Of a stretch of 64,000 nt of DNA, positions 4,211 through 21,870 are shown one piece after another (position 1 is the first letter of the stretch; the number at the start of each line of letters is the position of its first letter). The notes under the pieces were generated by a model. It was not told where the DNA came from. It ran no database searches and saw only the letters and a list, made by a program, of their open reading frames with translations. The position numbers and the translations under genes are program-made. The stretch lies in NCBI RefSeq assembly GCF_003148665.1, contig NZ_QGGQ01000006.1:177183-241182 (forward strand), in the 5' to 3' direction. Origin of the DNA: Maribacter polysiphoniae. GTDB taxonomy: Bacteria; Bacteroidota; Bacteroidia; Flavobacteriales; Flavobacteriaceae.

Positions 4211-4543
4211 TTATTTGCCCAACATGAGCAATTCGTTACAGCGTATTTCGGTGACATATCGTTTTTCACCCTCTTTGGTCTCATAGGAGCGATGGGTCAA
4301 TTTACCTTCCACGGCCACCTCGTTGCCCTTGGTCAAATAATTTTCGACGATCTCGGCGGTCTTCCCCCAGGCGACGACATTATGCCATTGGGTATCGGTA
4401 ACCTTCTCCCCTTTTGCATTTTTGTAGGTCTCATTGGTAGCGATTGAGAATTTGGCCAATTTGCTACCTCCATCCAAGTTTACGATTTCGGGATCATTCC
4501 CTAGGTTTCCAATCAACTGTACTTTGTTTCTAAGTGCGTTCAT
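4211..4543 (-). CDS. ssb: Short single-stranded DNA-binding protein
   Basis: This 110-residue protein is a single OB-fold of the bacterial SSB type: MNALRNKVQLIGNLGNDPE, then KFSIATNETYKN, WHNVVAWGKTAEIVENYLTKG, and VEGKLTHRSYET. SSB coats single-stranded DNA in replication, repair and recombination. It ends at NELLMLGK directly after the OB fold and lacks the disordered linker and acidic tip (DDDIPF-like) through which housekeeping SSB recruits partner enzymes, so it is probably an accessory SSB, not the main one. TAGGTTTG read leftward at 4610-4603 resembles a -7 promoter element. It is the last backbone gene before the AT-rich island. Confidence 0.9.
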   Translation of the reverse strand: MNALRNKVQLIGNLGNDPEIVNLDGGSKLAKFSIATNETYKNAKGEKVTDTQWHNVVAWGKTAEIVENYLTKGNEVAVEGKLTHRSYETKEGEKRYVTEIRCNELLMLGK

Positions 4544-5523: not shown

Positions 5524-5724
5524 TTAATTGTCAATAACTTCTTGCTTATAAAGTTCTTGAACAATTAAATTAAATGTGTCATTCTCAGTTAAAGAATTTC
5601 CTTCTATAGAGCATGAATGATAAGTCATTCTAGTAGCTTGATGTATCTCGTATTTTCTTTTTTCTGGTAAAGATTCAAACCAAATTTTTACTTTTTTAAA
5701 ATCTAATTTGGATTGCTTTTCCAT
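5524..5724 (-). pseudogene. Fic-family N-terminal fragment or orphan Fic antitoxin-like protein
   Basis: The 66-residue product contains TYHSCSIEGNSLTENDT. This matches the inhibitory-helix region of Fic proteins, (S/T)xxxE(G/N), here SCSIEG, followed by the NxLT that usually introduces the Fic fold. The Fic active-site motif (HPFxxGNGRxxR) is absent, and no continuation is visible downstream. Fic enzymes AMPylate target proteins. Separate small proteins carrying only the inhibitory helix act as antitoxins in some loci, whereas most Fic proteins carry it at their own N-terminus. No Fic toxin is present nearby, so a truncated Fic gene is more likely than a functional antitoxin. It lies 125 bp past mcrC on the same strand. 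Confidence 0.5.
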
Positions 5725-5849
5725 ACTAATATTTAAAATTTAAATGTTCAGAAGTTACTTTGTATAACAATCGTTAAAAATGAGGAAAACAACTGATTGT
5801 GTGTAATATCTAATCATTAGGTACCTCCCTCCTACTAAATTAAAAAAAA

Positions 5850-7160
5850 TTACATTACCGGTATCTGTATTGAATATTTATAAAGTTTGAGATATCGTTT
5901 ATCTTCTTGTGATAATAGTTCATCTATAACTATGTCACTATTCTTGGAATCATTACTTGTATAAATGATAAGCGTATCTGTTAGTAAATTATCATTTTTA
6001 ATTTCTAATTCTTTTCTAATGGATTTTAATCTGCCATACCCACTTACTTGTGCGGCGTCTTTATGAGAAATTTGACCTTCTTCATACCTGGGTTTATATT
6101 TGGCGTCAATAACAACTTTAAAATTACCACACTTAGAATTCAATAAAATATCTGGCTCTAATGAATGGAATTTCTTATGATAGATTACTTCATTCCTCAA
6201 AGGAAATACTTCTTTCAGTTTTTTAAATAAATACAATTCAAAAAGCTTGGGCATATCTATCCAAAAAGGTGGCGTTTTATACTTGGTTTCACTTACTTGA
6301 GATATATTATAAGAGAATCGTTTTAAAATAATTTTAGAAATTTGAACAGCGGATTTATACTCTTTAAAAAAGGGATTGTGTTTTAAATTAGTAACTTCCT
6401 TTAAGCTAATAACAGAAGACACATTGGTAAAAGCAGGACTAATATAATTAATAAGATATTTGACGCTTTCTGTAGATAAGGTCTTATGATTTGAAATTAC
6501 AGCTTTAGCAAACTCTAAAGTCTTCTTTAAAAGTCTATTTTCTATTGAATTATAACCAAACTCCTGATATTTGCAGTAGTTAAAATGCATCTTACTTTTG
6601 GTATGATTCTTTTTTACAGAGGCATTTACCAAAATTTTACCTTTTACCCTCGTATTTAAGTTCTGAGTAACATCGTAGTACGATTTTTTGAGCCCTTTTT
6701 TTACAATCTGTTTTAAAATAGTTAAAAATTCTAAAATCAGTAATGGGCTCAGTAAATCTTGTTGCTGTTCAATTTGGATTAAAGGTGCATTAAAGTCTAT
6801 GGAATATAAATTATCTAAATGCTTTATGTTTTCGGTCTCTTTTAAAGCCTCAAAAAGCATTAATAAATAATTTACCTCCGTAATGTCATTATTTAATTTT
6901 GGCTTAATGTAAATGGGTAATTTGCCTTTTACAATCCAGTTTACACCTACTATGTAACTTGAATTTAATCTATAGGCTTCATCTTTTTCATTAAACTGAA
7001 TATCAAAACAAAGCTCGTTAGTATTTTTTGAACGCTGAAAGTGTTGTGAAAAGTTTTGTTGTTGCAATATTACCTTTTGCTCTTCACTTAATTCTAGTAA
7101 AGAGTTTTCATATTTATAACCATAATGTTCATTAACAACAATCATGTTATAAATTTTCAA
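5850..7160 (-). CDS. mcrC: McrC-type nuclease subunit of a modification-dependent restriction system
   Basis: At 436 residues this is a usual-length McrC (PF10117) protein. The N-terminal half corresponds to the McrB-contacting region, and the C-terminal half carries a PD-(D/E)xK nuclease core: D337 in LEPDILL and D352-A-K354 in VVIDAKYKPRY. McrC supplies the cutting activity for the McrB NTPase ring, which recognises modified cytosine or other modified sites and translocates DNA. It overlaps mcrB by 14 bp, the usual tight coupling, and is the last gene of an eight-gene leftward operon. No terminator hairpin with a T-run is evident after it. Catalytic residues look intact. Confidence 0.9.
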   Translation of the reverse strand: MKIYNMIVVNEHYGYKYENSLLELSEEQKVILQQQNFSQHFQRSKNTNELCFDIQFNEKDEAYRLNSSYIVGVNWIVKGKLPIYIKPKLNNDITEVNYLLMLFEALKETENIKHLDNLYSIDFNAPLIQIEQQQDLLSPLLILEFLTILKQIVKKGLKKSYYDVTQNLNTRVKGKILVNASVKKNHTKSKMHFNYCKYQEFGYNSIENRLLKKTLEFAKAVISNHKTLSTESVKYLINYISPAFTNVSSVISLKEVTNLKHNPFFKEYKSAVQISKIILKRFSYNISQVSETKYKTPPFWIDMPKLFELYLFKKLKEVFPLRNEVIYHKKFHSLEPDILLNSKCGNFKVVIDAKYKPRYEEGQISHKDAAQVSGYGRLKSIRKELEIKNDNLLTDTLIIYTSNDSKNSDIVIDELLSQEDKRYLKLYKYSIQIPVM

Positions 7161-9330
7161 TTATAGGTAATGCACTAATTTTTAATAAACCGTCAGTAAC
7201 ATATTCTCTCAAAATAGGCTTAATCTCATAGTCTAAATTATAATTGAAATTATTTTCAGTGTATATAAAATAACTATGACCTAATTGAACATCTTTAGCT
7301 TCAAATTCATCAGATAAGTACTCAGAGTTTTTGCCATTCTCATCAATAAAAAGATTCTTTACTTTTAAGAAAATATCTTCTTTGAAAAATAACCTTGGTT
7401 CTTCTTCCTTTCGGTTAGCATTCAAATCTGCTTCAATCAATATTTCTGGTAGTATATCTACAAATGCAAAACGTCGTCTAATAGCATAATCTATTTGACC
7501 TACACTTCTATCTGCAGTATTCATCGTACCAATAATGAATAGATTTGGAGGTAGCGTTATTTGTCTGTCTCCTTTAATACCATACATACTATCAACAGCT
7601 TTGCCCCTATATTCTAATGCATATATTAGTTCTCCTAATACGCTAGATAAATTTGCTCTGTTAATTTCATCAATAATTAATACGTAGTTGTTTAAGGGAT
7701 CTTTTTGTATTTCATGGTCATTGAAGGTTAAATTTTCATCATTTATAAATTGTTGAAATAAATTTAATACTCTTACGAAATAACTTGCGTGCTGTTTTGC
7801 TAGACCAGATAAATTTTCATTTCTCTTTAAATCTTGTCTTTCTATATTACCATCTAAAAATGCCTGTTTAATATCCTTGAAAAGCATTCTATCCCCTCTT
7901 TGATTCCAACCTGCTGCTGGACTTTTATATCTGAAAGCATCTTCATCAGTGTTAATTAAACCAACACTTTTTGTTAATCTGTAAAACCCTTCATTATTCT
8001 CAATTTCTTCGTTAATCTTATCAACAAATAGGCTGAAGTATTCTTCTAAAAATACCTCATTAGAAAAGGTTGTTTCATCTTTATAAAAATCATTATAATT
8101 TTTCAAGGCTTTGGATGCATAATCTGCTAAGATTCTATTCTCAGTTTTATACTCTATTTTCCCAGCCTCGTTGTTCTCGACTGTTATTCCTCTGACAAAA
8201 TCTTCATAGGTATAAGATGGATGGAATTGAATAATCTTATAATAATCAACTATTTTCTTTTTTGCAACAATAGGTTGCTCAATATTCTTATTTTCAAACA
8301 GATATTTAGCTATGGCTGCATCATAAGAATCAAAGCCGTTTTTTTGTCCTCCAAGCCATAATTTTTCATTATAAGCTCTTTTAATACCTGCGTATGGAAT
8401 ATCATAAGTGCTTCCAGAATCAAGTGTAACGGTGCATCTATCGCTTTGTACATTTGAAATACCGTAACTTTTTCTCCCCGATGAACTAGGAATTTGTTTC
8501 ACATTTTTTATTTGCTCTCTGATGTAAGAATCAGATAAAAATGGGTCAGACTTTGTTTCATCTTTTATATGACTATTATCTTTAGTTATTTCTTCGGCTA
8601 TTAATTGTGCCAATCTAGTCTTACCTGTTCCTGGAGGACCTTGAAGAATAATTTGCTTTTTATGATGCAGTAAATCTATATATTGTTTCATGATTGAAGA
8701 TGAATCATTAGTAGTGGAATTCTCGCTTATGCTATTTGGGTTTTTGAAATATTCGAAAGTCTGCCATGGATAAGAAATTAAATCCATAAAATTTATAGAT
8801 GGATTATGTTCTTTATAAAAGCTATTTATAGAATGACTATCCTTGAACCAATTGTTTTGATATTCAGGAAGCTCTTCTTCAATGTTATTATGGATGTAGT
8901 AAAAAAGTTCTTTAAGGCTATCATCCTTTACAATTGTGGATAGATTATTTGGTTGTAGCCCAGCAATTACCCTATAAGTAGCAGCTCTTCTATCTTGTGC
9001 CGTAAACCTTCTAATGACACTTTTAACTTGTTCATATGTCTCCCATTGAGGATTATCTTGGTTATCTGCAATAATTTTCAGCAAAGGACCTAGTTCTGCC
9101 CAATTATTTTTTATTTTAGATTGTTCCTCTTTTGTAAAATACCCTTGTTTTAAAGACGATACACATTGATTATTCGATTTCTCAAAGAATTCAAAAAACA
9201 CTTCAGAATCCCAATCTTCCCAATTCTCTTTGGTTGAAGCTTCTACTATAAATTTTGGAACATATTCTTTATAAGCGTTTACCCACTCACTCCAAACTTC
9301 AATCTTTTTGATTAATTCTATTAGTTTCAT
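7147..9330 (-). CDS. mcrB: McrB-type AAA+ GTPase of a modification-dependent restriction system
   Basis: This 727-residue protein has Walker A GPPGTGKT (231-238), the family motif HPSYTYEDFVRGI (370-382), Walker B YVLIIDEINRAN (549-560) and the McrB signature MNTADRS (603-609), followed by arginine-finger-like IRRRF. It should form the ring that binds modified DNA, hydrolyses GTP and drives McrC. The first 200 residues are expected to hold the DNA-reading domain, but I do not recognise them as one of the common types, so the modification recognised cannot be predicted. The AAA core also has a long insertion between Walker A and Walker B. It starts 36 bp after the HNH gene, which suggests it belongs to the same transcript. 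Confidence 0.92.
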   Translation of the reverse strand: MKLIELIKKIEVWSEWVNAYKEYVPKFIVEASTKENWEDWDSEVFFEFFEKSNNQCVSSLKQGYFTKEEQSKIKNNWAELGPLLKIIADNQDNPQWETYEQVKSVIRRFTAQDRRAATYRVIAGLQPNNLSTIVKDDSLKELFYYIHNNIEEELPEYQNNWFKDSHSINSFYKEHNPSINFMDLISYPWQTFEYFKNPNSISENSTTNDSSSIMKQYIDLLHHKKQIILQGPPGTGKTRLAQLIAEEITKDNSHIKDETKSDPFLSDSYIREQIKNVKQIPSSSGRKSYGISNVQSDRCTVTLDSGSTYDIPYAGIKRAYNEKLWLGGQKNGFDSYDAAIAKYLFENKNIEQPIVAKKKIVDYYKIIQFHPSYTYEDFVRGITVENNEAGKIEYKTENRILADYASKALKNYNDFYKDETTFSNEVFLEEYFSLFVDKINEEIENNEGFYRLTKSVGLINTDEDAFRYKSPAAGWNQRGDRMLFKDIKQAFLDGNIERQDLKRNENLSGLAKQHASYFVRVLNLFQQFINDENLTFNDHEIQKDPLNNYVLIIDEINRANLSSVLGELIYALEYRGKAVDSMYGIKGDRQITLPPNLFIIGTMNTADRSVGQIDYAIRRRFAFVDILPEILIEADLNANRKEEEPRLFFKEDIFLKVKNLFIDENGKNSEYLSDEFEAKDVQLGHSYFIYTENNFNYNLDYEIKPILREYVTDGLLKISALPIIENL

Positions 9331-9366
9331 TTTTAATCGTATAGCTTTACTGGATTTTAATTTCTT

Positions 9367-10494
9367 TTATATTGCCTGCGCTAAATTTATATTACAAAAG
9401 GTATAAAGCATATACTCATTTCCAACAGCACATATAAATTCAAGGTAGGCTTTGTTTATTAATACTCCAGTCTTTCTTCTCGGATTCCCCAATTGATTTC
9501 TAAAGGCACTTACAATTACTCTTAAGGTCGTTATATTATTGCTTAATGTAAACTCAGGATGGTCTGGTAAATAATCCTCATGAAAGTCATCTTTCACTTG
9601 TTTATTGTGTGAGCTTAAGTAGCTGTTAAACCGTGTCTCAATTTTAAATACTGATTTCCATGTTTCCACTTTTTCAGCCTCAGTTGGATCTTGTTCCACT
9701 ACATCAAGTTTATAATAACCGTAAGGATATTTTTCCTTTTCTTCATCAGAAAGAGAACCAACATCAGAAAAATTGTTTACCGATAATTGTACGCCTTGAT
9801 TTGATTCATAAGGGTAAAATGACTCCCTTCTAGTTCCGTCATCATTGTGAAGAACATCAGCAGTTCCTTTTACACCACCTTGGTTACATTTATCACACAT
9901 AGGCACCAAATTGGAAAAATTTACAGCATATAATGGGTACTTAGATTTGTACAACCAATGGTCATAATCATCTTTAGCTTCTCCATCTATTAGAGCATAT
10001 TCATGTAAACCACAGAATGGACAAACACGTCCAGAATTATTTAAAGTTTTAAAATTGGTATAATGATTTCTTAAAGTAGTTCCAAGTTTATCTTGAATGG
10101 TTTTATTTGTTCCTAGCGCTGTACCATAAAAATGATCTTTAAGAACTGCTTTTAGTGCCGCATGTAGGTCTGCAGCATAATTTTCAGATAGAATTACAGC
10201 CTTTGTCTTTTCTTCACAAAGACTTTTAATATCTAGACCTGCGTCAAATTCATCAAACAATGATTGGCGATTAGCTATGGTAAGTTTTTGAAATTCAGTA
10301 TGTAAATCAATAAACTTATCCTCAAAACTTTTATTACCCGCCTGTGCTTTGGAATTTGACATAACATCTCGAAACCATTCAGGGAACAGATTTCTAGAAT
10401 ATGCACAAACAGGAATTGAGTTTCTTAGAAATTCAAAAACGACTTGATTTACTCTTTCAATAGGATGTGAAGGATATTTCAAAGTATAAATCAT
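9367..10494 (-). CDS. HNH endonuclease partner of the upstream ATPase (Septu PtuB-like)
   Basis: The 375-residue protein has a central zinc-ribbon HNH domain: C158-P-F-C161, then D178-H179 in DDYDHWLYKSKYP, an asparagine in NFSNLVPM, and C200-DK-C203. This is the HNH arrangement seen in PtuB-type proteins, with the usual 'DHYLPKSKYP' changed to DHWLYKSKYP. It overlaps the ATPase gene by 4 bp (ATGA), so the two are translationally coupled. Known Septu systems pair an ATPase (PtuA) with an HNH nuclease (PtuB) and block phages by nucleic-acid cleavage. Assignment to Septu in the strict sense is inference; the HNH core itself is clear. It is 36 bp from mcrB. Confidence 0.75.
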   Translation of the reverse strand: MIYTLKYPSHPIERVNQVVFEFLRNSIPVCAYSRNLFPEWFRDVMSNSKAQAGNKSFEDKFIDLHTEFQKLTIANRQSLFDEFDAGLDIKSLCEEKTKAVILSENYAADLHAALKAVLKDHFYGTALGTNKTIQDKLGTTLRNHYTNFKTLNNSGRVCPFCGLHEYALIDGEAKDDYDHWLYKSKYPLYAVNFSNLVPMCDKCNQGGVKGTADVLHNDDGTRRESFYPYESNQGVQLSVNNFSDVGSLSDEEKEKYPYGYYKLDVVEQDPTEAEKVETWKSVFKIETRFNSYLSSHNKQVKDDFHEDYLPDHPEFTLSNNITTLRVIVSAFRNQLGNPRRKTGVLINKAYLEFICAVGNEYMLYTFCNINLAQAI

Positions 10495-12152
10495 TCTTCT
10501 GTTCCTTTTTCAATGATTAGCTTATTCAGTTTTTGAAGGATCATAGTCTTCTCATGTGAGTCACCATACTTTGAGAGAGCATCATTTAATTCATTGATAT
10601 TATTTGATTTCAAATCTTCTAGCATTTCTTTCCATGAAACATCAGCAATCTGCCTTTGCTTACCGAAAAACTCATTGATTAGATTGGTTACTGATGTACC
10701 GTAGGTGTTAATGGTTACTTCTTCTGGTCCATCTCGCTTATCTGCTTTTAACCAAACTACATTGCTCTTTTTTGAATCAGAGATCATGAATGGAGAATGA
10801 GTGGTTAATACAATTTCTTGTTCACGATCATCTTCCGTTGGATTGGCTTTCATACATGCATTTATGAGCCAGATAAACTTGGACCTCCATTCGGGATTAA
10901 AATGGGTCTCTGGCTCATCTAAAAGGAAAAGCGTACTTGTGCTATCTAAAAGAATAATACTTCCTAATACCTGCAACAACTGATGTTCACCATCAGATAG
11001 ATGTTTATAATAGATTGGGGCAGTAACACCCTCTTTCTTAAATGAGATATTTCCTAAATGAAAAAGCTGTTTTTCGATTTCATATTTAGGTATTAAATCA
11101 GATAGGTTTTCACTTGTTCCAGCTTTAGCAGATTTGACAGTTTTACTGATGTTTCTACTAATCTTTTCAATATTAAGTGTTTGGAAAAAATAAAGCACTC
11201 TGAATAATCTATCTGCGGAATTGAACTTTTCTCTGAAACCAGTTAAAGTAGCTTCATTCATTTTGAAGTTGAAGGATAGATTGGTGAAATCATGACGAGT
11301 GGTACTATTATTTTCTTCGTCAAAAAGAGCATCAATTGCTTTAAAGCTTTCAATTGCTTCTTCTAATTCATCTGGAAGATATTTTTCAAAAGTCTTTGGC
11401 TTTTTTAATGATAATTGGATAGAAAATCCATTTAGTTCATTTACTTCAATTTCAGTTTTTAAAATAGAAAGGTCTTTTGTTTCGCCCAGTAGTGAGAGTT
11501 CCTTGTCGAAAATAAAGTTAGAAACGGTTATCAATTTTGAAACATTGTAATTTAGAAATTGGAAACGATTCATTTCTAACTTTGAGTCAACTGCTTTGTT
11601 CTTCTTTCTCTTTAAATCTTCATAGTACTCGAAATTCAGTTTTACAAAAGGATTACTGACCAATTCATTTAGACCTGAAGAATAGCCAATAATATGATTT
11701 GGAAGCACTTTACTTAAGCCATTATTGTAGAAATCCTTTACTTCAATCTCTTTTTCATTGAATGATAATTTAACTGCAGGCAACTCATCAACGGGTTTAG
11801 AAACGAGTACTAGTTGGTTTTGATCGAGGTCATCAAACGTAAGGGCGCCTAATTCGTCCCAAGTAAATCCTGCACCAGCGAGCGTCAGTTTTGGCAAGTA
11901 GTAATCAAGCTCAAAGCCGAAGGCAGTTTTGAAATTATCTAAATCTTTTTTTGATGAACGATTAAAATTCTCGAGATAATAAAACATCTCGGCAACCACC
12001 TCTAGTGCATTTGATTTCCCCGATCCATTTAGTCCAACAAAACAAATAGGCTCAATCTGTTCGTTTGCGACTAAAGAACGGTTGAAGTTAATCTCATAAT
12101 CAGCAGGCAATCCACGAAAAGGGGATAATAATTTGATACGCTTTAACTTCAT
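10491..12152 (-). CDS. Restriction-system-associated AAA/ABC-type ATPase (Septu PtuA-like)
   Basis: This 553-residue protein is an SMC/ABC-like ATPase. It has Walker A GLNGSGKS (40-47), an ABC signature LSDGEHQLL (385-393), Walker B LFLLDEPETHF (about 409-419) and a switch histidine in LTTHSPFMI. The middle region (about 60-370) is helical and holds no recognised domain. It starts with a 4-bp overlap on hsdS and ends with a 4-bp overlap on the HNH gene. Relatives are annotated as restriction-associated ATPases or PtuA; they sense infection and control the partner nuclease. Position inside a type I restriction operon makes a defence role very likely; the trigger is unknown. Confidence 0.8.
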   Translation of the reverse strand: MKLKRIKLLSPFRGLPADYEINFNRSLVANEQIEPICFVGLNGSGKSNALEVVAEMFYYLENFNRSSKKDLDNFKTAFGFELDYYLPKLTLAGAGFTWDELGALTFDDLDQNQLVLVSKPVDELPAVKLSFNEKEIEVKDFYNNGLSKVLPNHIIGYSSGLNELVSNPFVKLNFEYYEDLKRKKNKAVDSKLEMNRFQFLNYNVSKLITVSNFIFDKELSLLGETKDLSILKTEIEVNELNGFSIQLSLKKPKTFEKYLPDELEEAIESFKAIDALFDEENNSTTRHDFTNLSFNFKMNEATLTGFREKFNSADRLFRVLYFFQTLNIEKISRNISKTVKSAKAGTSENLSDLIPKYEIEKQLFHLGNISFKKEGVTAPIYYKHLSDGEHQLLQVLGSIILLDSTSTLFLLDEPETHFNPEWRSKFIWLINACMKANPTEDDREQEIVLTTHSPFMISDSKKSNVVWLKADKRDGPEEVTINTYGTSVTNLINEFFGKQRQIADVSWKEMLEDLKSNNINELNDALSKYGDSHEKTMILQKLNKLIIEKGTEE

Positions 12153-13585
12153 TTCTTTAGCTTAAACATTACCTGCTTAGTATCTCCACTATATACTTGC
12201 TCAATTATATTTTCATCCATTGCTTTTTTCAGGAATGATTTGACCTGAGATTTTTCAACGTAAAGTGCTCTGTTGCTTATGGCTTCTTCCAAATTAATAA
12301 CAGAAAACAAATTACTTCCGAAATCATTTTTAATGATTTCATCAAGGTTTACTTTAGTGTCTTGTACTTCATGTTTATCAACCCATTTTTCCTTACCAAT
12401 TGCTTCCATTTCTAGTTTAGTTTCTTCTGTTTCCAAAAGAGAAATATCAACCTTACTCAAATCCAAATCTCCTTTAAAAGCTTTTTGGCTTATGCTACCG
12501 TATAGATTTACTATTTCTCGTAAGCTTAACTGCAAGTGATTTCTAAGTTTTGCGATTTCTTCCGCTTTTTTTCCAAATGCATTCTGTTGTGATATTGGTG
12601 GAATTGGAATTTGGATATTTGAAATTTGTTTAGAGTTAATATTGAACTGAATAGAAGTTTTTCCCGCTTGGCCCATGAACCTTTTTCGCCCACCTGAAGT
12701 TTTTAAAAATGTGTAGAAAAACTCATAATTGATTTTCGTTGGATTGAACCTCAGTCTCATAACGTGTGAATCAAATACAACAGTATGTCCTAAATCAAAA
12801 TAAATTGAAGCTTTGCCTAGGTGAGATTCGCTACCAATTGCTCTAGCTAGAAGAATGTCACCATGTTTTAACTGGGATTTCTCAATTTTTTCCTCTGGAA
12901 TGTTTGAAAATTTACACTTATTAATATTAACATTCCGACTGCCCAGTTCACCAACACGTACTACCGGAATAACCCCATCATCTATTGCTGGTATCGTTGT
13001 CCCAAGGCTGGGTTTCTCTGAAAATGTTGAGTTTAATTTCTCTACAGGTAAATTGAGTGTGTTTTGACCTGGATCACCAAACATCTCCAAAAAAGTAGAT
13101 TTCAAAAACTCATCCACGAGTTCAATGCTTTCTTTTCTTTTCTGAATCAGACTCTCGCAATCAAATAAAATTTTGGCAATTCGTTTTTGATCATCAAGAT
13201 TATCCGGCACCATTAGTTTGACTCTAGATAACCCTGTTCTTGTTATTTGGGGTTGTGCGGAACCTGTTATTACATCTTTTAATCCTCTTGTTAGTAAAGC
13301 ATAATAAAGGAATTTTAAATTATATTTGGTTTCATTTATATCGTCTAATGCCATAGCATTAGAATTTATATACGAATATGGTGTCGTTAAATGAATATTG
13401 CCACTTGTGGCACCACGACAAGTAATTGCTAGAGTTGGATTTTTGTGGTTAAAATTTGAATAAAAACCAATTACTCCATTTGCTCCATAAACTGGATAAC
13501 CATCTTCTTTAAGAAATTTACTTGGTAAATTTTTCCATTGTTTCGGTTTTGCAATATCTGTTAAGTTGACTTCAATCCAATTCAT
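12149..13585 (-). CDS. hsdS: Type I restriction-modification specificity subunit HsdS with C-terminal extension
   Basis: The 478-residue protein has two target-recognition domains, each followed by a conserved helix. The first half has YPVYGANGVIGFYSN ... GSAQPQITRTGLSRV, then LDDQKRIAKILFDCESLIQKR; the second half begins near residue 185 and ends with ISQQNAFGKKAEEIAKLR and SISQKAFKGDLDL. HsdS sets the DNA sequence bound by the HsdM/HsdR complex. A normal HsdS would end at about residue 375. This one continues for about 100 residues, ending in a segment resembling a winged helix (INLEEAISNRALYVEKSQ, then VKSFLKKAMDENIIEQV). It abuts hsdM and overlaps the ATPase gene by 4 bp. Confidence 0.92.
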   Translation of the reverse strand: MNWIEVNLTDIAKPKQWKNLPSKFLKEDGYPVYGANGVIGFYSNFNHKNPTLAITCRGATSGNIHLTTPYSYINSNAMALDDINETKYNLKFLYYALLTRGLKDVITGSAQPQITRTGLSRVKLMVPDNLDDQKRIAKILFDCESLIQKRKESIELVDEFLKSTFLEMFGDPGQNTLNLPVEKLNSTFSEKPSLGTTIPAIDDGVIPVVRVGELGSRNVNINKCKFSNIPEEKIEKSQLKHGDILLARAIGSESHLGKASIYFDLGHTVVFDSHVMRLRFNPTKINYEFFYTFLKTSGGRKRFMGQAGKTSIQFNINSKQISNIQIPIPPISQQNAFGKKAEEIAKLRNHLQLSLREIVNLYGSISQKAFKGDLDLSKVDISLLETEETKLEMEAIGKEKWVDKHEVQDTKVNLDEIIKNDFGSNLFSVINLEEAISNRALYVEKSQVKSFLKKAMDENIIEQVYSGDTKQVMFKLKK

Positions 13586-15190
13586 TTAGATAATCCTTTT
13601 TAATTCTGAAAGACCTTCCAAAATATCTTTTTCTATGCCACCATTACCATCTTTACCAATCAGTTTGATTAGAATTTCAGAGGGTTTTTCATATGTTATT
13701 TCTTCAAACACTTCTTCTTTATATCTTGCAAAGCTCAAATCATAACTTTCCTCAATTATTTCTGATTTTTGAACATAGAAAAATTTACCTTTTCTATCAT
13801 TTTTTTTAGAATCATATGAACTATGAAATTGTTCAACAATATTCTGAAGGTCTCCGTGACCACTTTCATTTTTTGAACGTTTATCATCTAAGCTGTAACC
13901 ATCCGATTCCATATCGAAGAACAATACGTTTTCGGTTTCGCCCCCTTTTGTAAAAATTAGTAAGGCTGTACTTACACCGGCATACGGTTTAAAAACACCA
14001 CTTGGCATACTAACAACAGCTTTCAGTTGAGAGTTTTCAATCATTAGTTTTCGAGCATCTTGAAATGCTTTACTAGAACTGAATAGAACTCCTTGCGGAA
14101 TAACAATTCCGGCAGTACCGCCCATTTTTAACATATTGTAGATACGCTCGATAAAAAGTAATTCCGTTTTAGTGGTTTTTAGATTTAACTCTTCATTGAT
14201 ATCTCCTTTATCTATGTTACCTGTAAAAGGAGGGTTCGCTAAAACAATGTCATATTCAGCAGTCTCATGAAAGCCTTTACTCAAAGTGTCTTTATAATCT
14301 ACTTTAGGGCTCCCAATACCATGCATCATTAAATTCATTAAGCCCAAACGAACCATGGTTTGATCAATGTCATAACCTTGTAAGCTATCTGCTAAAATCC
14401 CTTTTACTTCTTCAGTTAAAAGAGCACTTTTGCTACTTCTGATAAAACCATCTTCATCAGGTTCTTTGTTAGCTTTATCCTTATCTAATTGAGTTACCAT
14501 GTATTGATAGGCTCCTAAAAGGAAACCACCTGTACCACAGGCTGGGTCTGCAACTTTTTGACCTAACTTTGGATTCACCAATTCCACCAATAATTTTATA
14601 ATATGTCTAGGAGTTCTAAATTGGCCATTTTTACCAGCAGCAGCTATTTCACTCAATAACATTTCATATACATCACCTTGTATATCTTGAAAATCTTGAC
14701 CTTTTTCACTGGCATCTTTTTCCATCTCTTCATAGATTTCGTCTATGCTTTTTATAGCCTCTAGAAGTAGAGAAGGTTTTGGAATAATGAAAACGGCATT
14801 TGCCATATGCTTGGTAAAAGGAGAGTCATCCTTGTCCAGTTGTTTTAAAAATGGAAAGACAAAACGCTGTATATGATTAAGCATTTCATCTGATGGCATG
14901 CGTTTAAACTCACTCCACCTTAATTTTTGCTTGTCAATACCGTTTTGTTTTTTCTCTTTATCTTCTGTAGTTAGATAAAAAGTGCCTGAAAACATAGATG
15001 TAAAATCATCACCCGTAAATTCAGCATTGGCTAAAGATTCCAAATCGTTTTCATCTAACTTTTTCATGAAAAGCAGATAGGTGATTTGCTCAATTGCTGT
15101 TAGTGGATTTGAAATTCCACCACTCCAGAACTTGTTCCAGAGGTCATCTATTTTTGATTTTATCTGTGAATTGTTACTTAGTAAACTCAT
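13586..15190 (-). CDS. hsdM: Type I restriction-modification DNA methyltransferase subunit HsdM
   Basis: At 534 residues this is a normal HsdM. An N-terminal helical domain (about 1-150) is followed by the SAM-binding motif DPACGTGGF (215-223) and the adenine-methylation motif NPPF (319-322). The chemistry is transfer of a methyl group from SAM to N6 of adenine in the sequence chosen by HsdS, which protects host DNA and, with HsdR, allows cleavage of unmodified DNA. It lies 1 bp after hsdR and directly abuts hsdS, so the three are co-expressed. No truncation or lost motif is seen. Confidence 0.96.
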   Translation of the reverse strand: MSLLSNNSQIKSKIDDLWNKFWSGGISNPLTAIEQITYLLFMKKLDENDLESLANAEFTGDDFTSMFSGTFYLTTEDKEKKQNGIDKQKLRWSEFKRMPSDEMLNHIQRFVFPFLKQLDKDDSPFTKHMANAVFIIPKPSLLLEAIKSIDEIYEEMEKDASEKGQDFQDIQGDVYEMLLSEIAAAGKNGQFRTPRHIIKLLVELVNPKLGQKVADPACGTGGFLLGAYQYMVTQLDKDKANKEPDEDGFIRSSKSALLTEEVKGILADSLQGYDIDQTMVRLGLMNLMMHGIGSPKVDYKDTLSKGFHETAEYDIVLANPPFTGNIDKGDINEELNLKTTKTELLFIERIYNMLKMGGTAGIVIPQGVLFSSSKAFQDARKLMIENSQLKAVVSMPSGVFKPYAGVSTALLIFTKGGETENVLFFDMESDGYSLDDKRSKNESGHGDLQNIVEQFHSSYDSKKNDRKGKFFYVQKSEIIEESYDLSFARYKEEVFEEITYEKPSEILIKLIGKDGNGGIEKDILEGLSELKRII

Positions 15191-15191
15191 G

Positions 15192-18008
15192 TTATGCTGC
15201 GAATTTTTCCGTTAATGCTAAAATTTCTTTTATCTCAGAAGGAGTGAATACACCACGTATTCCTTTTGGATGAATAATCGTAAATGGAGACGAGATTAAA
15301 TCTCGTTTTTCAATTTCTCCTCTTTCAATGATGTAATCTTTTAATAAGTTCAAGAACTCAATTTGCCGGGTAGATAAATTGCTGTGTTCTTTAATAAATG
15401 CTTGAACCAGTCTGCTCACTTCAGCATCAAAGCTTTCCAAAATCTCAATTCCTAGAATGTGTTTAATAAACTGAATGAACTTTGCCTTTTGATGATTATA
15501 AACTTTACGTAATAGCTGTTCTGTTATATGTGGGTCTTCTTCATGAAGTTCCTCTGCAAGTTGTTCGGCTTCTTCTTCAGTAACCTGCTCGCCAGACTTA
15601 ATCTTTTGAAGAATTGGATTCTTTTCGATTAGCTCTGCAATTTTTGCTTCAACCATCTCACGGTATTTTGAAATACTAACCGCTTCATTTTTGGGGCCAA
15701 ATTCAACCATTTCTTTAGTTTGAATTACATCTTGTAAATTCAACTTAGAAGGTCCGTCAAGAGGTCCTTTTTGCTCTCTGTATTTAATAAGGGGAGACAA
15801 AGTTTTAGCTAATACATCAAACCCTTCATCTAGAACCGTAGACCAGAAATTGTTCGTCAAAACCTTTTTGATGTAATCTTCATTCTTTGCTACTATGTTT
15901 ATGGACATAGGCAATTCACTAACCACAGTAATTATATTCTCTTTAAGAGTGTCGTATTTCTCGGTCTCTTCTAATAAATGTACAAGGGAAATTTCCAATA
16001 TATCTTTATTAAAACGCATGGCTTTAAAATCCGATTGGGAAACAGTTCTGAAAAGTGGTTTTATAGTATGACGTAAAAACTCAATCTTTTCTGGTGTCAA
16101 ATGATTCCAAAAAGCATCATCTTCGACTTTTGCTAAATCAGGTTTTGAATCTTGAATCACAACTGATTTTTTAGGCAATTCTGAGATTTGACTTCTTAAT
16201 TTTTCAATTTCCTTTTGACCAATTTCAGGCTCTTCCTTTTCAAGAGCTGTTTCAATTTTGTCAATTCTAATGCCAACAAAACGAACAGGTAAAGGGATTT
16301 GCCCTTTAAGTTGTTTTCCTTTTGGATTCAGTTTGAAGTATTCAAAATTATCCCAACAATCTAAGATTAGGAAAGCATCTTTTTCGGCACACCAAGGTTT
16401 CATCTTGGTTGGTTCGAGAAGCCTAGTTCCTCTTCCAATCATCTGCCAGAATTTGGTATACGAATAAACTGGTTTTACAAAAACAAGATTTACCAATTCA
16501 CGTACATCAATCCCTGTGTCGAGCATGTCTACACTAACAGCAACTCTTGGCATGTCATTATGCGTGAATTGATGAAGTAAACCGCCTTTGCCATAGACAC
16601 GTGGATCATCAGATACAATTACTTTGGCCAATTCACCTGTATATTCTGGATATAGTGAATCGAAAATCTTTTCAATTCTCCTAGCGTGGGCTTTTGTAGA
16701 ACAGAAGAAAATAGTTTTCCCAGGTAACACACCATTTGGATCTTTTATAGATTCTTCCATAAATTCCTTAACAATGGTAACGTTAGTTCCTTTGTTAATT
16801 ACTGACTTCTCTAAATCTGTTCCTTCAAAATTTATTTCGGCAACTTCCTTTCCTTGAAGAATCAAGTTTTTCTGATCTTCTAGACTTATGGTTCGTTTAC
16901 TAATTCCATCCTCTTGAAATTTAGTTTGAATCTTCATTACCTGAAAATCACAGAGGTATGGAGGGATGTTGTTTACAGCTTCCTCATAAGAATATGCGAA
17001 AGAAGGTAAGCCGTCTTCACATTCAAATAGTTTGAAAGTGTTATGGTCAATAACATCTGTAGGTGTAGCAGTTAAACCAAGTGTTGTTGTGTTAAAATAA
17101 TCTAGAACTTCCTGATAAGTGTTGTAAATAGATCTATGACTTTCATCAATTACGATTAAATCAAAAAAGTGAGGAGACAAAGAATATTCTTCATCTCTAA
17201 TGATATTCAACATTGTAGGATAAGTAGATGTGTAAATCCTTCTATCCTTAGCAATTTCTTTTTCTCCAACCTTTGGCCATCTAGGTTCATTTGGGAGAAA
17301 CTCTTTAAAAGCTTCTAAGGCTTGGTTTCTTAATGCAATTCGGTCAACTAAGAACAGAACTCGTTCAGCCCAACCAGCTCGCATAAGAGCATCCACCATT
17401 GCTATGGTGGTTCTGGTTTTTCCAGTTCCTGTAGCCATTACTAAAAGAAACTTTTGTCTCTTTTTTTCAATTCCTTCCATTACAGAACGGATAGCATGGA
17501 TTTGATAATCACGTCCTGCTATGTCTGTGTTTATTAGCTCTTGTGCTAGTGGTTTTCTGTTTCTTCTGATATAGGAGTATCGTTCAAGGTCATCCCTTGT
17601 TGGAAATCCAATCACTTTCTTTGGTGGATAGTTTCCTAAATCCCAATAGAATATTTCATGACCGTTGGTATAAAAACAAAAAGGTAATTCACCACCAGAT
17701 TCATTTTGGATATTTTGACAATATTGTTTGGCTTGTTCTCTTCCTAATTCTGCATTTACGGAAGTTTTCTTTGCCTCAACTACTGCCAGTACTTTTCCAT
17801 CTTTTCCATATAAAACATAATCTGAATATTGATATCCTTGATAAGGAGTTTGAGGTTCATTAACACCCTCAGGTAAACCAACATTTATATTGTATTCAAT
17901 ACCAACTTGGGTTTGGTCAGTAATATTCCACCCCGCTTGTTGAAGCTGCTTATCGATTAAGTCCTTTCTTGTTTTTGCCTCATTCATATCAATTCTTATT
18001 TGAGACAA
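15192..18008 (-). CDS. hsdR: Type I restriction endonuclease motor subunit HsdR
   Basis: This 938-residue subunit has the N-terminal nuclease core (D63 in YSDYVLYG and E78-A-K80 in VVEAKK), then an SF2 translocase: MATGTGKT (191-198), DLIVIDESHRS, GLTATP, and the motif VI region with IGRGTR. A helical C-terminal region follows. It pumps unmodified DNA and cuts at a distance once HsdS/HsdM find a bare site. The longest frame begins at TTG 18008, overlapping the Xre gene by 20 bp. An ATG at 17987 (MNEAKTRKDL) lies 1 bp after the Xre stop, and would be an equally good, coupled start. All core motifs appear intact. Confidence 0.95.
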   Translation of the reverse strand: MSQIRIDMNEAKTRKDLIDKQLQQAGWNITDQTQVGIEYNINVGLPEGVNEPQTPYQGYQYSDYVLYGKDGKVLAVVEAKKTSVNAELGREQAKQYCQNIQNESGGELPFCFYTNGHEIFYWDLGNYPPKKVIGFPTRDDLERYSYIRRNRKPLAQELINTDIAGRDYQIHAIRSVMEGIEKKRQKFLLVMATGTGKTRTTIAMVDALMRAGWAERVLFLVDRIALRNQALEAFKEFLPNEPRWPKVGEKEIAKDRRIYTSTYPTMLNIIRDEEYSLSPHFFDLIVIDESHRSIYNTYQEVLDYFNTTTLGLTATPTDVIDHNTFKLFECEDGLPSFAYSYEEAVNNIPPYLCDFQVMKIQTKFQEDGISKRTISLEDQKNLILQGKEVAEINFEGTDLEKSVINKGTNVTIVKEFMEESIKDPNGVLPGKTIFFCSTKAHARRIEKIFDSLYPEYTGELAKVIVSDDPRVYGKGGLLHQFTHNDMPRVAVSVDMLDTGIDVRELVNLVFVKPVYSYTKFWQMIGRGTRLLEPTKMKPWCAEKDAFLILDCWDNFEYFKLNPKGKQLKGQIPLPVRFVGIRIDKIETALEKEEPEIGQKEIEKLRSQISELPKKSVVIQDSKPDLAKVEDDAFWNHLTPEKIEFLRHTIKPLFRTVSQSDFKAMRFNKDILEISLVHLLEETEKYDTLKENIITVVSELPMSINIVAKNEDYIKKVLTNNFWSTVLDEGFDVLAKTLSPLIKYREQKGPLDGPSKLNLQDVIQTKEMVEFGPKNEAVSISKYREMVEAKIAELIEKNPILQKIKSGEQVTEEEAEQLAEELHEEDPHITEQLLRKVYNHQKAKFIQFIKHILGIEILESFDAEVSRLVQAFIKEHSNLSTRQIEFLNLLKDYIIERGEIEKRDLISSPFTIIHPKGIRGVFTPSEIKEILALTEKFAA

Positions 18009-18183
18009 TTAAATCTTTAATATCTACATTTAAAATATCAGCAATTTCATTAAGTATTTCTAAGCTTGGTTGTCTCCTATTTTGAACATAAGAATTGACC
18101 ATATTATAGCTCTTGCTTAACTTTTCCGACAGCCAAACTTGCTTAATTCCTTTCTCTTCAAGTACCTCTTTAATGCGATTCAT
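17989..18183 (-). CDS. Xre-family regulator leading the restriction operon
   Basis: The 64-residue protein is a lone helix-turn-helix domain of Xre/Cro type: IKQVWLSEKLSKSYNMVNSY, then VQNRRQPSLEILNEIADILN. Small regulators of this sort often control restriction-modification operons so that methylation precedes cutting. It is first in the leftward train, and its stop codon overlaps the hsdR start region, a coupled arrangement. TATTTTTG read leftward at 18206-18199 fits a -7 element 16 bp before its start, but no clear -33 element was found. No matching operator dyad stands out in the 215 bp before the large palindrome. Confidence 0.85.
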   Translation of the reverse strand: MNRIKEVLEEKGIKQVWLSEKLSKSYNMVNSYVQNRRQPSLEILNEIADILNVDIKDLIVSNKN

Positions 18184-18400
18184 TATTTATAGGATTTTCA
18201 AAAATAAAAATAGCATTATTAACTGGTTATATATCATATTTTGAGATAAAAAGAAATCATCTTCATAGTATTCTAAACGTTTAACACATATAAAGTAATC
18301 TATTTTTAGAATCCCTATTTCACCAAACAAGCTTAAATTCAACCTAATTGATAATCTTAATTTTCTAAAAGAAACACAACTATTTCTAAATAGTATTTCG

Positions 18401-18470
18401 AATTTAAGGGTAACATTTTAAATCACATTACGGTTTTCCGTAATGTGATTTAAAATGTTACCCTTAAATT
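18401..18470. repeat. Perfect 70-bp palindrome (33-bp arms, 4-nt loop)
   Basis: Positions 18401-18433 are the exact reverse complement of 18438-18470, with loop TTTT. I checked every pair; there are no mismatches. It lies in the 330-bp gap between the divergent Xre/hsd operon and the nuclease-helicase gene, 44 bp before that gene's ATG. No T-run follows, and it is AT-rich, so it is not a classical terminator. It could be a cruciform, an mRNA leader hairpin, or a miniature mobile element. The remaining sequence of this gap is AT-rich with nothing else recognisable. Confidence 0.9.
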
Positions 18471-18513
18471 ACTGCTATGTTATCAAAAACACTCAAGAAT
18501 CTAAATCGCTTCT

Positions 18514-21500
18514 ATGAAATATAAGAACAACCAAATTACTTATAGTCCCTCCGATTTATCTTCTCATAGTAGTTGTAAGCACCTTACACAGCTAAACAAG
18601 CAACATGTAAGAGGAGAAATTGCAGATCCTGAAATATATACAAATCGCGTACTTCAAATGCTACAGGAAAAAGGTATTGATTTTGAAGAAGGTCATCTGC
18701 AGGCAGTTAGGGACCAAGAAAAATCTATTGCCGAAATTAATATAGAGGATCCACATGCTGAGAAGCATACTATTGAAGCTATGCATAAAGGCGTGGATGT
18801 TATTTATCAAGCAAGGTTAAAAGAAGATGGTAAATGGAGCGGCTGGGCTGATTTTTTAAAAAAGGTTGATCGACCAAGTGCTCTTGGTAATTGGTCGTAT
18901 GAAGTATGGGATACCAAATTAGCAAATGAAACTAAAGCAGGTACTATACTTCAAATTGGTCTCTACTCGGAACGTGTAGCTTCAATACAAGGCCTAACTC
19001 CCGAGTACATGGGTGTAATAAAGCCTGAGGGAGAAGAAAAGTATCGATATGATGAATATGCTGCATACATAAGATTGGTAAAACGAAACCTTGAAGATGC
19101 AATTTTAAAAGAAGAAGACACATACCCTGACCCTGTTAGTCATTGCGATATTTGTAAATGGTGGAAGAACTGTAATGCCGTTAGAAGAAAAGATGACCAT
19201 TTATCTTTCGTGGCAGGATTAGGAACTTCCCAAGCAAAAGAATTCAAACTACATGAAGTTGATACATTGGAAAAACTAGCCAATTTAAGTTTACCTGTAC
19301 CTTTTAATCCCTCGAGAGGAGTAAAGGAAACCTATAATAAACTTAGGGAACAGGCAAGGCTGCAATATACAAGTAGGCAAAACGGATATGAACCCATATA
19401 CGAAACCTTAGATGTTGAAGAAGGTAAAGGGCTAAGCAAACTGCCGAAACCATCTGTAAATGATATTTTTCTCGATTTTGAAGGGGACAGAATGGTTGAG
19501 CCAGATGGTCTTGAGTATATGATTGGCTATGTACATAAAGGTAAATATCATGCCCTTTGGGCTAAAAATGAAAAAGAAGAGAAAGAGAATTTTGAGCAAT
19601 TTATTGACTTTGCTTTTAAACAGAAACTAGAAGATTCTTCGCTTCATATTTATCATTATGCACCTTACGAAGTCACCGCTTTTAAACGGTTAATGGGAAA
19701 ATATGCATCTCGTGAAACAGAGATTGACACCTTTTTAAGATCGCACACATTTGTGGACCTCTATAGTGTTGTTCGTCAGTCAGTACGCGCTAGTGTGGAG
19801 AAGTACTCAATCAAGGACTTAGAAGTGTTCTTTGGTTATGAACGTAAGATGGATTTACGACAGCTCTCAAGTCATAAATGCCAATTAGAGCTACTTCTTC
19901 AAACTAATAATATTGATAAATTAACAAAGGAAATCAAAGATGCCGTCCAGCTATATAACCAAGATGACTGTCAATCATTAATACGCCTTCAGGAATGGTT
20001 GGAAGAGATTCGGATGAGTCTTATAGAACAAGGTGAAAATATTCCAAGACCAGAGGATGATGATGGCGCAGCAAGTGATAACATTACTGCTCATCAAGAA
20101 CGTATAGAACCCATTATGAATTCTTTACTAGATGGCATACCTTCAATAAAAGCAGAACGAAACGATGTCGAGCAAGCAAGATATATTCTAGCCCATATGT
20201 TGGATTGGTATCGCAGAGAAAAGAAGTCTTTTTGGTGGGAGTTTTTCCGTTTGAAAGAGCTACCAGAAGATCAACTTTTAGAAGAACGTAAAGCGATTTC
20301 ATTTTTAGAATATACAGGCAATAGAGAGCCAGAAAAACTAAGTGTTGTAGATGAGTATAAATTTCCGCCCCAGGAATGTGATTTGCGTCAGGGTCAACCT
20401 GTAGAAGATCAGGAAAATAATAAAATTGGCGCTATTCATGAGATTGACGTTGAAACAGGTGTGCTGCGAATTAAAAAAGGTCCCTCTAAAAAAGATATGC
20501 CACATCCATTTTCGGTTATCAGTTTGGAAAGCGTCAATTCTAGTGTAAAAGAAGAATCAATTATTAGATTGGCCGAATGGGTTGTTGAAAATGGAATGGA
20601 TAACGAAGATATGACCTATCGTGCGGCTAGGCAATTACTGATGAACAGTCCTCAAAGTATGATAGAAGATAGAACGCATTTTGAAGATCTTTTTGAAAAA
20701 ACATATGATTTTGCATCTAAACTAAACCACAGTTATTTGCCCGTTCAAGGTCCGCCAGGTGCCGGCAAAAGTTTTACAGGAAGTCGCCTTATTATTAGAT
20801 TGATTAAAGATGGTAAGAAAATAGGTATTACAGCTCTTAGTCACAAGGTCATCTCTAACTTGTTAGCAAAAATCTGGGAAGCAGCTCAAGAGGAAGGTAT
20901 CAGTATTCAAATGATACAAAAGGTTAAAGTGGATACAGAGGAAAGTAAACCATGGACCTTGGTTAAAGATGAAAGTCCCATCCAAAAAGCTATTGGTAGT
21001 GCTGACGTTATTGCCGGAACATCTTTCATGTGGAGCAAACCAACTTATCAAAACAGTGTGGATTATCTTATTGTTGATGAAGCAGGTCAATTATCTCTGA
21101 TTGATACTTTAGCTGTTTCTCATAGCTGCTCTAATCTTATTTTATTAGGAGATCCACAACAATTAAAACAGCCACAGCAGGGTGTACACCCGGACGGCAC
21201 AGAGGTATCTGCACTTGAAAATGTATTACAAGGAGAAAAAACTATTTCTGATGAACAAGGAGTATTTTTGGCTGAAACTTGGCGTATGCATTCCTCAATC
21301 AATACTTTCGTTTCTGAACTTTTTTATGAAAACAAATTAAAATCAAAAGATCACCTGGATACACAGCGAATAATAGGCTCACGGTATGCCGGAGCAGGAA
21401 TGTATCTTGAAGAAGTTGAACATGATGGAAATACTAATTCATCGTCTGAAGAGGTAGATAAGATATCGGAAATTGTTGCGCACCTAACGGATGGTAATGT

Positions 21501-21870
21501 TTCCTTTATTAATGAAAATAATAAAAAAGCTAGCTTGACAATTAGCGACATAAAAATCATTACCCCTTATAATGCACAAGTACAGGCTATTAAAAATCGT
21601 TTAACTGATTTGGAAGTTGGTACAGTTGATAAATTTCAAGGTCAGGAAGCTCCAGTTGTTATTTATTCTGTAGCCACTTCTAGCTTAGAGGAAGCCCCGC
21701 GTGGAATGGAGTTTTTGTTTAGCCCAAATAGATTTAATGTTGCAGTTTCAAGGGCTCGCACATGTTTTATTATGGTGGCAAACCCATCTATTTTTGAAGC
21801 TGAATGCAAAAGTCCGCATCAAATAAAGTTGGCTAATGCCTTTTGTAGGTTTAAAGAACTTTCAAAGTAA
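18514..21870 (+). CDS. TM0106-type RecB-like nuclease fused to an SF1 helicase
   Basis: The 1118-residue protein joins several enzymatic parts. A Cas4/RecB-like nuclease comes first (D133-T-K135 in VWDTKLA; cysteines in HCDICKWWKNC near 210-220). A predicted RNase H-like exonuclease fold follows (FLDFEGD at 319-325; YHYAPYE; LYNQDDCQS). Last is a UPF1/Dna2-type helicase: GPPGAGKS (749-756), VDEAGQ (854-859), LGDPQQL, ETWRMHS, TVDKFQGQEA and NVAVSRAR. Relatives are labelled TM0106-family RecB-like putative nuclease. Role is not established; DNA end-processing in repair or phage defence is likely given the neighbours. ATG 18514 gives the expected start, and a 15-codon upstream frame overlaps it. 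It is divergent from the hsd operon and convergent with the recombinase gene. Confidence 0.85.
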   Translation: MKYKNNQITYSPSDLSSHSSCKHLTQLNKQHVRGEIADPEIYTNRVLQMLQEKGIDFEEGHLQAVRDQEKSIAEINIEDPHAEKHTIEAMHKGVDVIYQARLKEDGKWSGWADFLKKVDRPSALGNWSYEVWDTKLANETKAGTILQIGLYSERVASIQGLTPEYMGVIKPEGEEKYRYDEYAAYIRLVKRNLEDAILKEEDTYPDPVSHCDICKWWKNCNAVRRKDDHLSFVAGLGTSQAKEFKLHEVDTLEKLANLSLPVPFNPSRGVKETYNKLREQARLQYTSRQNGYEPIYETLDVEEGKGLSKLPKPSVNDIFLDFEGDRMVEPDGLEYMIGYVHKGKYHALWAKNEKEEKENFEQFIDFAFKQKLEDSSLHIYHYAPYEVTAFKRLMGKYASRETEIDTFLRSHTFVDLYSVVRQSVRASVEKYSIKDLEVFFGYERKMDLRQLSSHKCQLELLLQTNNIDKLTKEIKDAVQLYNQDDCQSLIRLQEWLEEIRMSLIEQGENIPRPEDDDGAASDNITAHQERIEPIMNSLLDGIPSIKAERNDVEQARYILAHMLDWYRREKKSFWWEFFRLKELPEDQLLEERKAISFLEYTGNREPEKLSVVDEYKFPPQECDLRQGQPVEDQENNKIGAIHEIDVETGVLRIKKGPSKKDMPHPFSVISLESVNSSVKEESIIRLAEWVVENGMDNEDMTYRAARQLLMNSPQSMIEDRTHFEDLFEKTYDFASKLNHSYLPVQGPPGAGKSFTGSRLIIRLIKDGKKIGITALSHKVISNLLAKIWEAAQEEGISIQMIQKVKVDTEESKPWTLVKDESPIQKAIGSADVIAGTSFMWSKPTYQNSVDYLIVDEAGQLSLIDTLAVSHSCSNLILLGDPQQLKQPQQGVHPDGTEVSALENVLQGEKTISDEQGVFLAETWRMHSSINTFVSELFYENKLKSKDHLDTQRIIGSRYAGAGMYLEEVEHDGNTNSSSEEVDKISEIVAHLTDGNVSFINENNKKASLTISDIKIITPYNAQVQAIKNRLTDLEVGTVDKFQGQEAPVVIYSVATSSLEEAPRGMEFLFSPNRFNVAVSRARTCFIMVANPSIFEAECKSPHQIKLANAFCRFKELSK

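Follow-up and report, generated by a model that had tools for sequence, protein, structure and literature searches.

Gene content and arrangement of the array

A stretch of 64,000 nucleotides from Maribacter polysiphoniae (contig NZ_QGGQ01000006.1), referred to below as the window, was analysed for a run of eight genes on its minus strand at positions 5850-18183, in which a small regulator gene is followed by the genes of a type I restriction-modification (RM) system, an ATPase-HNH gene pair and McrBC. An initial annotation, made from the letters alone, had described a fused one-strand array of eight genes with gaps from -20 to +36 bp. The coordinates, the common strand and the gaps were all confirmed; "fused" was the wrong word, as the open reading frames (ORFs) are eight separate ones. 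The gene families in the window were checked against Pfam, PADLOC and NCBIfam.

The first gene of the array encodes an Xre/Cro-type helix-turn-helix (HTH) regulator of 64 amino acids (17989..18183; PF01381 HTH_3, 37.9 bits at a cut-off of 23). The type I restriction subunit HsdR (15192..18008) matched PF04851, PF08463 and PF04313 above cut-off and PADLOC REase_I with 549.6 bits, the methyltransferase HsdM (13586..15190) matched PF02384 (197.6 bits) and PF12161 and contains the motifs DPACGTGGF and NPPF, and the specificity subunit HsdS (12149..13585) matched PF01420 in two target-domain stretches. By Pfam and PADLOC, the three subunits with the translocase/nuclease, N6-methylase and specificity domains of a type I RM system are present. 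A PtuA-like ABC ATPase (10491..12152; TIGR04435, 348.7 bits at a cut-off of 300) and its HNH nuclease partner of 375 amino acids (9367..10494), which is PtuB-like by position and motif (PADLOC PDC-M62B 56.1 bits, PtuB 35.3 bits), are encoded next. The last two genes encode McrB (7147..9330), composed of an N-terminal region (approximately residues 1-205) and an AAA+ GTPase domain (PF07728, 61 bits; solved McrB chains, E 6e-30), and its nuclease partner McrC (5850..7160; PF10117, 112.3 bits at a cut-off of 23.9).

In McrB, the Walker A, Walker B and NxxD motifs were read as GPPGTGKT, IIDEIN and MNTAD, respectively, and together with the PF10117 protein that follows they are those of McrBC, the NxxD rule being taken from PMC11090510. 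A CoCoNuT identity was rejected, since the definition in the same paper (PMC11090510) needs the McrB motif to be shortened to NxD and the window reads NTAD. Among the 25 Pfam matches listed, none lies before residue 207 of McrB, and no plasmid relative was found for residues 1-199. When compared with the McrB of locus L128, the GTPase part was 46% identical over 530 amino acids, with nothing significant before residue 216. The N-terminus may be the part that reads a modified base. No McrB relative was found in viral contigs with a single-protein query.

Junctions and predicted transcription

From Xre to McrC, the gaps between successive genes are -20, 1, 0, -4, -4, 36 and -14 bp, respectively. 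ATG starts are present at both 4-bp overlaps, HsdS/ATPase and ATPase/HNH (ATGA junctions), and the coupled overlaps that had been noted there stand, whereas those noted at Xre/HsdR and McrB/McrC depend on TTG starts of HsdR and McrC, for which the in-frame ATG codons at 17987 and 7145, respectively, are as likely and would leave a gap of +1 bp in each case. The gaps of 0-1 bp given earlier for HsdR/HsdM and HsdM/HsdS were measured as 1 and 0 bp.

The widest junction of the array is HNH/McrB with 36 bp. The initial annotation had named a terminator or a strong promoter in this gap as a point against a single unit; neither was seen in the pattern scans, none of the sites listed by the sigma-70 promoter and terminator scan being on the minus strand inside the gap. 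At the same junction in L095, L076 and L128, the distances are +9, +15 and -35 bp, respectively (all gaps in relatives were computed with the first possible starts). A Bacteroidota-type promoter was taken by us as TTTG-N17-23-TANNTTTG, in which TANNTTTG is the -7 motif. No complete promoter of this type was found on the minus strand of 5701-18600 (0.57 expected under a first-order model), nor was one obtained for the array's own start. A weak candidate promoter element, TATTTTTG (18199..18206, minus strand), which fits the -7 motif TANNTTTG, is located 15 bp before the Xre start; it has no matching -33 element, and three such octamers are present on the minus strand of 5701-18600, with about nine expected by chance. 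One transcript for all eight genes is predicted from the sequence.

Identity of the ATPase-HNH pair

The ATPase passes the curated cut-off of TIGR04435, which is named "restriction system-associated AAA family ATPase" in NCBIfam, and its PtuA-like character was indicated by PADLOC PtuA (174.5 bits) and by PDB profile matches to the retron I-A ATPase (E 4e-11) and PtuA (E 6e-11). With its AlphaFold2 model (pLDDT 80.7), the 42 best Foldseek matches in PDB were all to chains from entries of retron I-A or Septu (PtuAB), followed in the ranking by entries of AriA, the ATPase of PARIS. The TM-scores to the PtuAB entries were 0.28-0.52 with root-mean-square deviations above 10, and the likeness to PtuAB was therefore taken from E-value and ranking, at the level of the entry and not of its PtuA chain. 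A PtuA-like ABC ATPase, as in Septu, is thus present in the window.

The HNH protein was recognised by its motif and by the PADLOC models PDC-M62B, PDC-M01B and PtuB; PDC-M62 and PDC-M01 are duplicates of Septu and are counted as Septu in PMC11811056. No match was obtained for it in Pfam (E up to 0.1) or NCBIfam (E up to 0.01), with none to the NCBIfam PtuB family, and this protein is the exception among the earlier family calls, which were otherwise upheld by Pfam, PADLOC and NCBIfam. The motif CxxC ... DH ... N ... CxxCN is invariant or almost so in 13 aligned sequences including that of the window; outside this alignment, the HNH protein of L032 is without one of the motif cysteines. A tblastn search of phage records with the window HNH protein gave no match, yet IMG/VR contigs carry loci in which RM genes and the pair are combined.

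Linkage of hsdS to the pair

The gene directly upstream of the ATPase gene is hsdS in 26 of 27 TIGR04435-like loci with the upstream region visible, the window included and L069 being the exception, and the hsdS-ATPase gaps are from -31 to +43 bp, commonly with a 4-bp overlap. These loci were drawn from plasmids, genome contigs, genomes of the window's order and phylum, viral contigs and the window itself. L070, L147, L148 and L149 (weak ATPase, hsd and HNH undetected) were left out, as were L141-L146, which have a PtuB-type partner, though each of these six likewise has hsdS directly upstream. At least eight confirmed loci were given by the genome-contig scan, and counts using it are no census. 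Only part of this set and of the 22-locus set described below was scored against NCBIfam, and HsdR, HsdM, HsdS, ATPase, HNH, PtuB, McrB and McrC of the fetched loci were called with profiles built from these same loci.

The order HsdM-HsdS-ATPase-HNH was found on plasmids of Priestia, Hymenobacter, Kovacikia (HsdS in two pieces) and Sphingobium, representing four phyla; the ATPase of these four plasmids is already annotated under the restriction-system-associated name, and McrBC was not detected downstream of the pair on any of them. HsdS-ATPase-HNH is therefore a known, already named linkage. A second, PtuAB-like pair is located directly 3' of hsdS in L075, L077, L078 and L079, and between hsdS and hsdM in the viral contigs L141, L142, L145 and L146 (the last two look alike). 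By gene position, the window has the layout of a PrrC-type guardian, with the putative effector genes on the RM strand and adjoining the RM genes. On the Priestia plasmid (L029), a DUF3578 protein is encoded at 6006-7073 (+), about 3 kb upstream of hsdM, and McrC was not found by profile; DUF3578 is a reader-type domain of McrB (PMC11090510).

Gene neighbourhood of McrBC

Among 395 genomes from the window's order, 46 contain PF10117, at 48 places (E up to 1e-8). With G041, G320 and two places of G098 left out and G000 being the window, 43 McrC loci besides the window were examined, and 39 of them, after removal of L115, L118, L119 and L120, have at least 10 kb upstream. Of these 39 loci, 19 have hsdM and hsdS upstream of McrBC on its own strand, and one has them upstream on the other strand (binomial p 4e-5, a significance exaggerated by the close kinship of several loci on the McrC tree). 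The link between type I RM and McrBC is looser than a fixed unit, with both on one strand in roughly half of the McrBC loci.

In 6/39, the profiles detected an HNH/PtuB partner upstream, always on the strand of McrB and just before it, with one small ORF in between in L074, L087 and L107. In L108, an HNH-like ORF (by eye; no Pfam match), which was missed by the profiles, lies further upstream and does not adjoin McrB; when it is counted, the adjacency is 6/7. The other contents of the position between hsd and mcrB are a TIR protein (L114), a Roc-COR-TIR protein (L136), an MTES helicase-nuclease (L094), a Schlafen AlbA_2 protein after an HsdM-like gene (L118) and an M78 peptidase with an unknown protein (L100), and the position is empty in L099, L104 and L116. 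The region between hsd and mcrB is a variable cargo slot, of which the ATPase-HNH pair is one filling. The Roc-COR-TIR protein of L136 (4441-8028, minus strand, between hsdS and mcrB) has 1195 amino acids and leucine-rich repeats. A different embedding, HsdR-ATPase-HsdM-HsdS-McrB-McrC with an ATPase of 578-581 amino acids between R and M, is present in L133 and L135, the ATPase of L133 being AAA_21.

Recurrence of the gene order in relatives

The initial annotation had proposed a search for the same gene order in relatives, and R-M-S-ATPase-HNH-McrB-McrC was found in four further genomes, each belonging to the window's family. Three of them (L095, L076 and L074) are among the 395 genomes sampled from the order, and the fourth (L128) is one of 99 sampled relatives. 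The gaps are 5, -8, 2, -4, 9 and -8 bp in L095, and 121, -1, -4, -14, -35 and -8 bp in L128, which has the best-scoring McrB relative among the 99 genomes. L076 has a PtuB-type HNH protein (TIGR02646 above cut-off) and a gap of 163 bp between HsdS and ATPase, and L074 has a TIGR04435 ATPase, a PtuB-like HNH gene with a broken frame and an ORF of 154 amino acids before McrB. In L087, L101 and L107, the ATPase-HNH pair is before McrBC in a chain without the full hsd set.

Across these loci, the lineages of the RM genes, the pair and McrBC occur in varying combinations. HsdM of L128 is 75% identical to that of L076, and the pair and McrBC of L128 are not close to those of L076; between L101 and L107, the pair is near-identical (ATPase 90%, HNH 95%), and McrC is only 22% identical. 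On the McrC tree, the distribution of the pair over the eight loci that carry it requires eight changes, at least seven of them forced by well-supported branches, and the mean after shuffling was 7.6, so that the pair label is scattered as at random and not clustered. This tree was built by a quick method from 52 rows with several long branches and labels assigned by hand; nine rows (L128-L136) were fetched through similarity to the window McrB, outside the PF10117 sample, and L108, whose ATPase and HNH-like ORF lie further upstream, as well as L133 and L135, with the ATPase between R and M, were labelled as hsd only. That the same order is built in several relatives from other variants of its components points to a favoured combination and not to an accident.

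Similar small HTH proteins are encoded upstream of hsdR in L074 (3124-3864, plus strand) and between hsdS and mcrB in L112 (10375-10791, minus strand). Both have HQGRNVKRFREML (by eye), and a possible shared regulator of RM-McrBC clusters may be represented by them.

Surroundings of the array

The GC content is 0.29-0.35 over 4-20 kb of the window, compared with 0.44-0.48 over the first 4 kb and 0.36-0.46 beyond 28 kb. The array is flanked by ssb (4211-4543) on one side and, on the other, by a divergent gene (18514-21870, plus strand) for a RecB-like (TM0106) nuclease of 1118 amino acids fused to an SF1-type helicase (TIGR03491, 209.6 bits; PADLOC MkoA-like, 142.7 bits), which is probably another defence gene. 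Behind it, genes for a phage-integrase-family recombinase, an AAA_22 ATPase and an rve integrase are in a row (21906-25348, minus strand), which look like a Tni-type transposon next to the island. A perfect inverted repeat of 33 bp with a 4-nt loop (18401..18470) separates the array from the divergent gene, possibly a terminator or an operator, and its only other match in the genome is partial (84%), on another contig. No tRNA was found within the 64-kb window. The low GC content and the neighbouring recombinase genes point to a horizontal origin, and the surroundings would be as expected of an acquired island. Just downstream of McrC, an ORF of 66 amino acids (5524-5724, minus strand) gave a weak match to PADLOC PDC-S04 (23.6 bits), a model that duplicates SoFIC (PMC11811056), and is perhaps a Fic remnant.

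Proposed function and alternatives

From the observed gene content, strand, overlaps, motifs, ATPase kinship, hsdS linkage and recurrence with different parts, the array is read by us, at an even chance, as a composite, horizontally acquired "immigration-control" operon with an embedded and probably RM-guarding effector. In the first layer, HsdRMS would mark self DNA and cut unmarked DNA. In the second, the PtuA-like ATPase and the HNH protein would most likely act as a suicide effector guarding the RM enzyme, like PrrC in EcoprrI; this effector would be silent as long as the RM complex is intact, and a phage blocking restriction or altering nucleotide pools would cause the release of the nuclease, which would then attack tRNA or DNA. 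McrBC, as the third layer, would cut DNA with modified bases, so that phages evading the first layer through modification would be caught. One promoter would drive RM, effector and McrBC as three echelons. The guarding role is predicted by analogy with PrrC, an effector within a type I RM operon that is released on phage T4 infection; PrrC is classed together with PARIS as an RM guardian in the literature (PMC3874165, PMC12707154).

Several results weigh against this reading. McrBC is behind the window's ATPase-HNH family in just two (the window and L074) of the 22 loci in which 3 kb or more of downstream sequence can be seen (L064, L065, L066 and L139, with less, and L069, with a weak ATPase and likewise no McrBC seen, were left out). 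The separation of McrBC from the rest in most relatives, which had been named in the initial annotation as the finding that would speak against it, therefore holds for this ATPase-HNH family, and a fixed eight-gene unit was rejected. The pair is present in only one (L128) of nine further McrB-anchored loci, the slot between hsd and mcrB holds unrelated cargo or none in other loci, and the changes on the McrC tree may be losses as well as gains, which the tree cannot separate. On three plasmids (three opened of nine records matched), relatives of the L095/L128-type HNH protein are in an ATPase-HNH pair with hsd and McrBC absent within 9 kb, so that a pair of that wider kind needs no RM. The HNH protein resembles PtuB only weakly by profile comparison (hhalign probability 34%, E 4e-4), though motif and gene order fit, and its structure model (pLDDT 48.6) is too poor for a structure search. 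The targets of PtuAB also vary: tRNA-Tyr is depleted or cleaved by retron-Eco7 PtuAB and one Septu, and retron-Eco4 PtuAB is seemingly without a tRNA target (PMC11555353, PMC13096335), while another Septu is reported, with reference to earlier work, to act on nicked DNA (PMC11555353).

Passive stacking, in which the slot in hsd-mcrBC islands of this order takes any recombining defence gene and the modules are independent, with transcription shared by position only, is the most probable of the alternatives, though we regard it as somewhat improbable. It is consistent with the TIR, Roc-COR-TIR, Schlafen, M78 peptidase and MTES contents or emptiness of the slot, with the related pairs without hsd or McrBC on the three plasmids, and with the free mixing of Hsd type and pair family; under random insertion, however, neither the 19:1 orientation of hsd and McrBC nor the position of the partners on McrB's strand and adjoining it, small ORFs aside (6/6, or 6/7 with L108), would be expected, and the TIGR04435-like pair is tied to hsdS (26/27). 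Several of the other cargo types are suicide effectors too, which fits a common role and argues against passive stacking.

Two transcripts, one for an hsd-ATPase-HNH operon of RM and guardian and another for mcrBC alone that begins within or ahead of the 36-bp gap, are an unlikely arrangement: HNH/McrB is indeed the widest junction and McrBC is missing downstream of most relatives of the pair (present in 2/22), but the pattern scans gave no promoter or terminator in the gap on the minus strand, and the same junction is +9, +15 and -35 bp in L095, L076 and L128, respectively. That the pair is an accessory of the type I enzyme and not a suicide effector, for example a second DNA nuclease degrading HsdR-cut DNA, is quite improbable; the hsdS linkage (26/27) and the Septu reported to act on nicked DNA would agree with it, but the PtuA kinship of the ATPase in sequence and fold and the growth arrest by retron-Eco7 PtuAB without its retron partners (PMC11555353) speak against it.

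A wider proposal, which is put forward tentatively and as rather less than probable, is that a two-gene analogue of PrrC, composed of a PtuA-like ATPase and an HNH protein and silenced by HsdS/HsdM, is widespread in type I RM operons, and that the hsd-mcrB gap of Flavobacteriales is a standing slot for suicide effectors, by which a three-echelon operon (cutting unmodified DNA, killing the cell if restriction is blocked, cutting modified DNA) would have been assembled repeatedly.

Relation to known systems and significance

The window is like the TIGR04435 type I RM loci in family and in the HsdS-ATPase-HNH order, and differs from the four compared plasmids in the McrBC behind the pair. With PtuA and PtuB of Septu and retron I-A it shares the ATPase fold, the sequence kinship and the ATPase-HNH gene pair; its HNH protein, however, is larger and weakly PtuB-like, and the pair is bound to hsdS instead of standing alone or with a retron. 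PrrC combines ABC ATPase and tRNase activity in a single protein, whereas the window splits ATPase and HNH nuclease into two genes, with McrBC following. In EcoprrI, a suicide effector gene is likewise located inside a type I RM operon (PMC3874165, PMC12707154). The RptR-RMS-DarTG-M48 island of enteropathogenic E. coli has seven ORFs, with a small regulator first and a toxin system embedded in a type I RM system, and is the closest published layout found; it differs in that the toxin is DarTG2 and McrBC is not among the seven ORFs described (PMC12255303). In the immigration control region of E. coli K-12 and in the E. coli-like McrBC branch, type I RM is near McrBC, usually unidirectional and a potential single operon (PMC3874165, PMC11090510), and the ATPase-HNH pair is not named in the main text of PMC11090510, where "hnh" and "septu" have no occurrences. 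RM with McrBC as a potential operon (PMC11090510), effectors embedded in RM operons and the link of TIGR04435 to hsd are thus already known. No paper describing the stack of RM, ATPase-HNH pair and McrBC or its recurrence was found among the papers listed from the open-licence PMC literature, mostly at the level of titles and the starts of abstracts, and this three-part stack is the less reported aspect.

If it is true that the pair senses the failure of restriction, the unassigned "restriction system-associated" ATPases would gain a function and PrrC would no longer be a special case. The recurring order with unrelated parts also offers a natural experiment on whether restriction combined with suicide and modification-dependent cutting works better than the three do apart.

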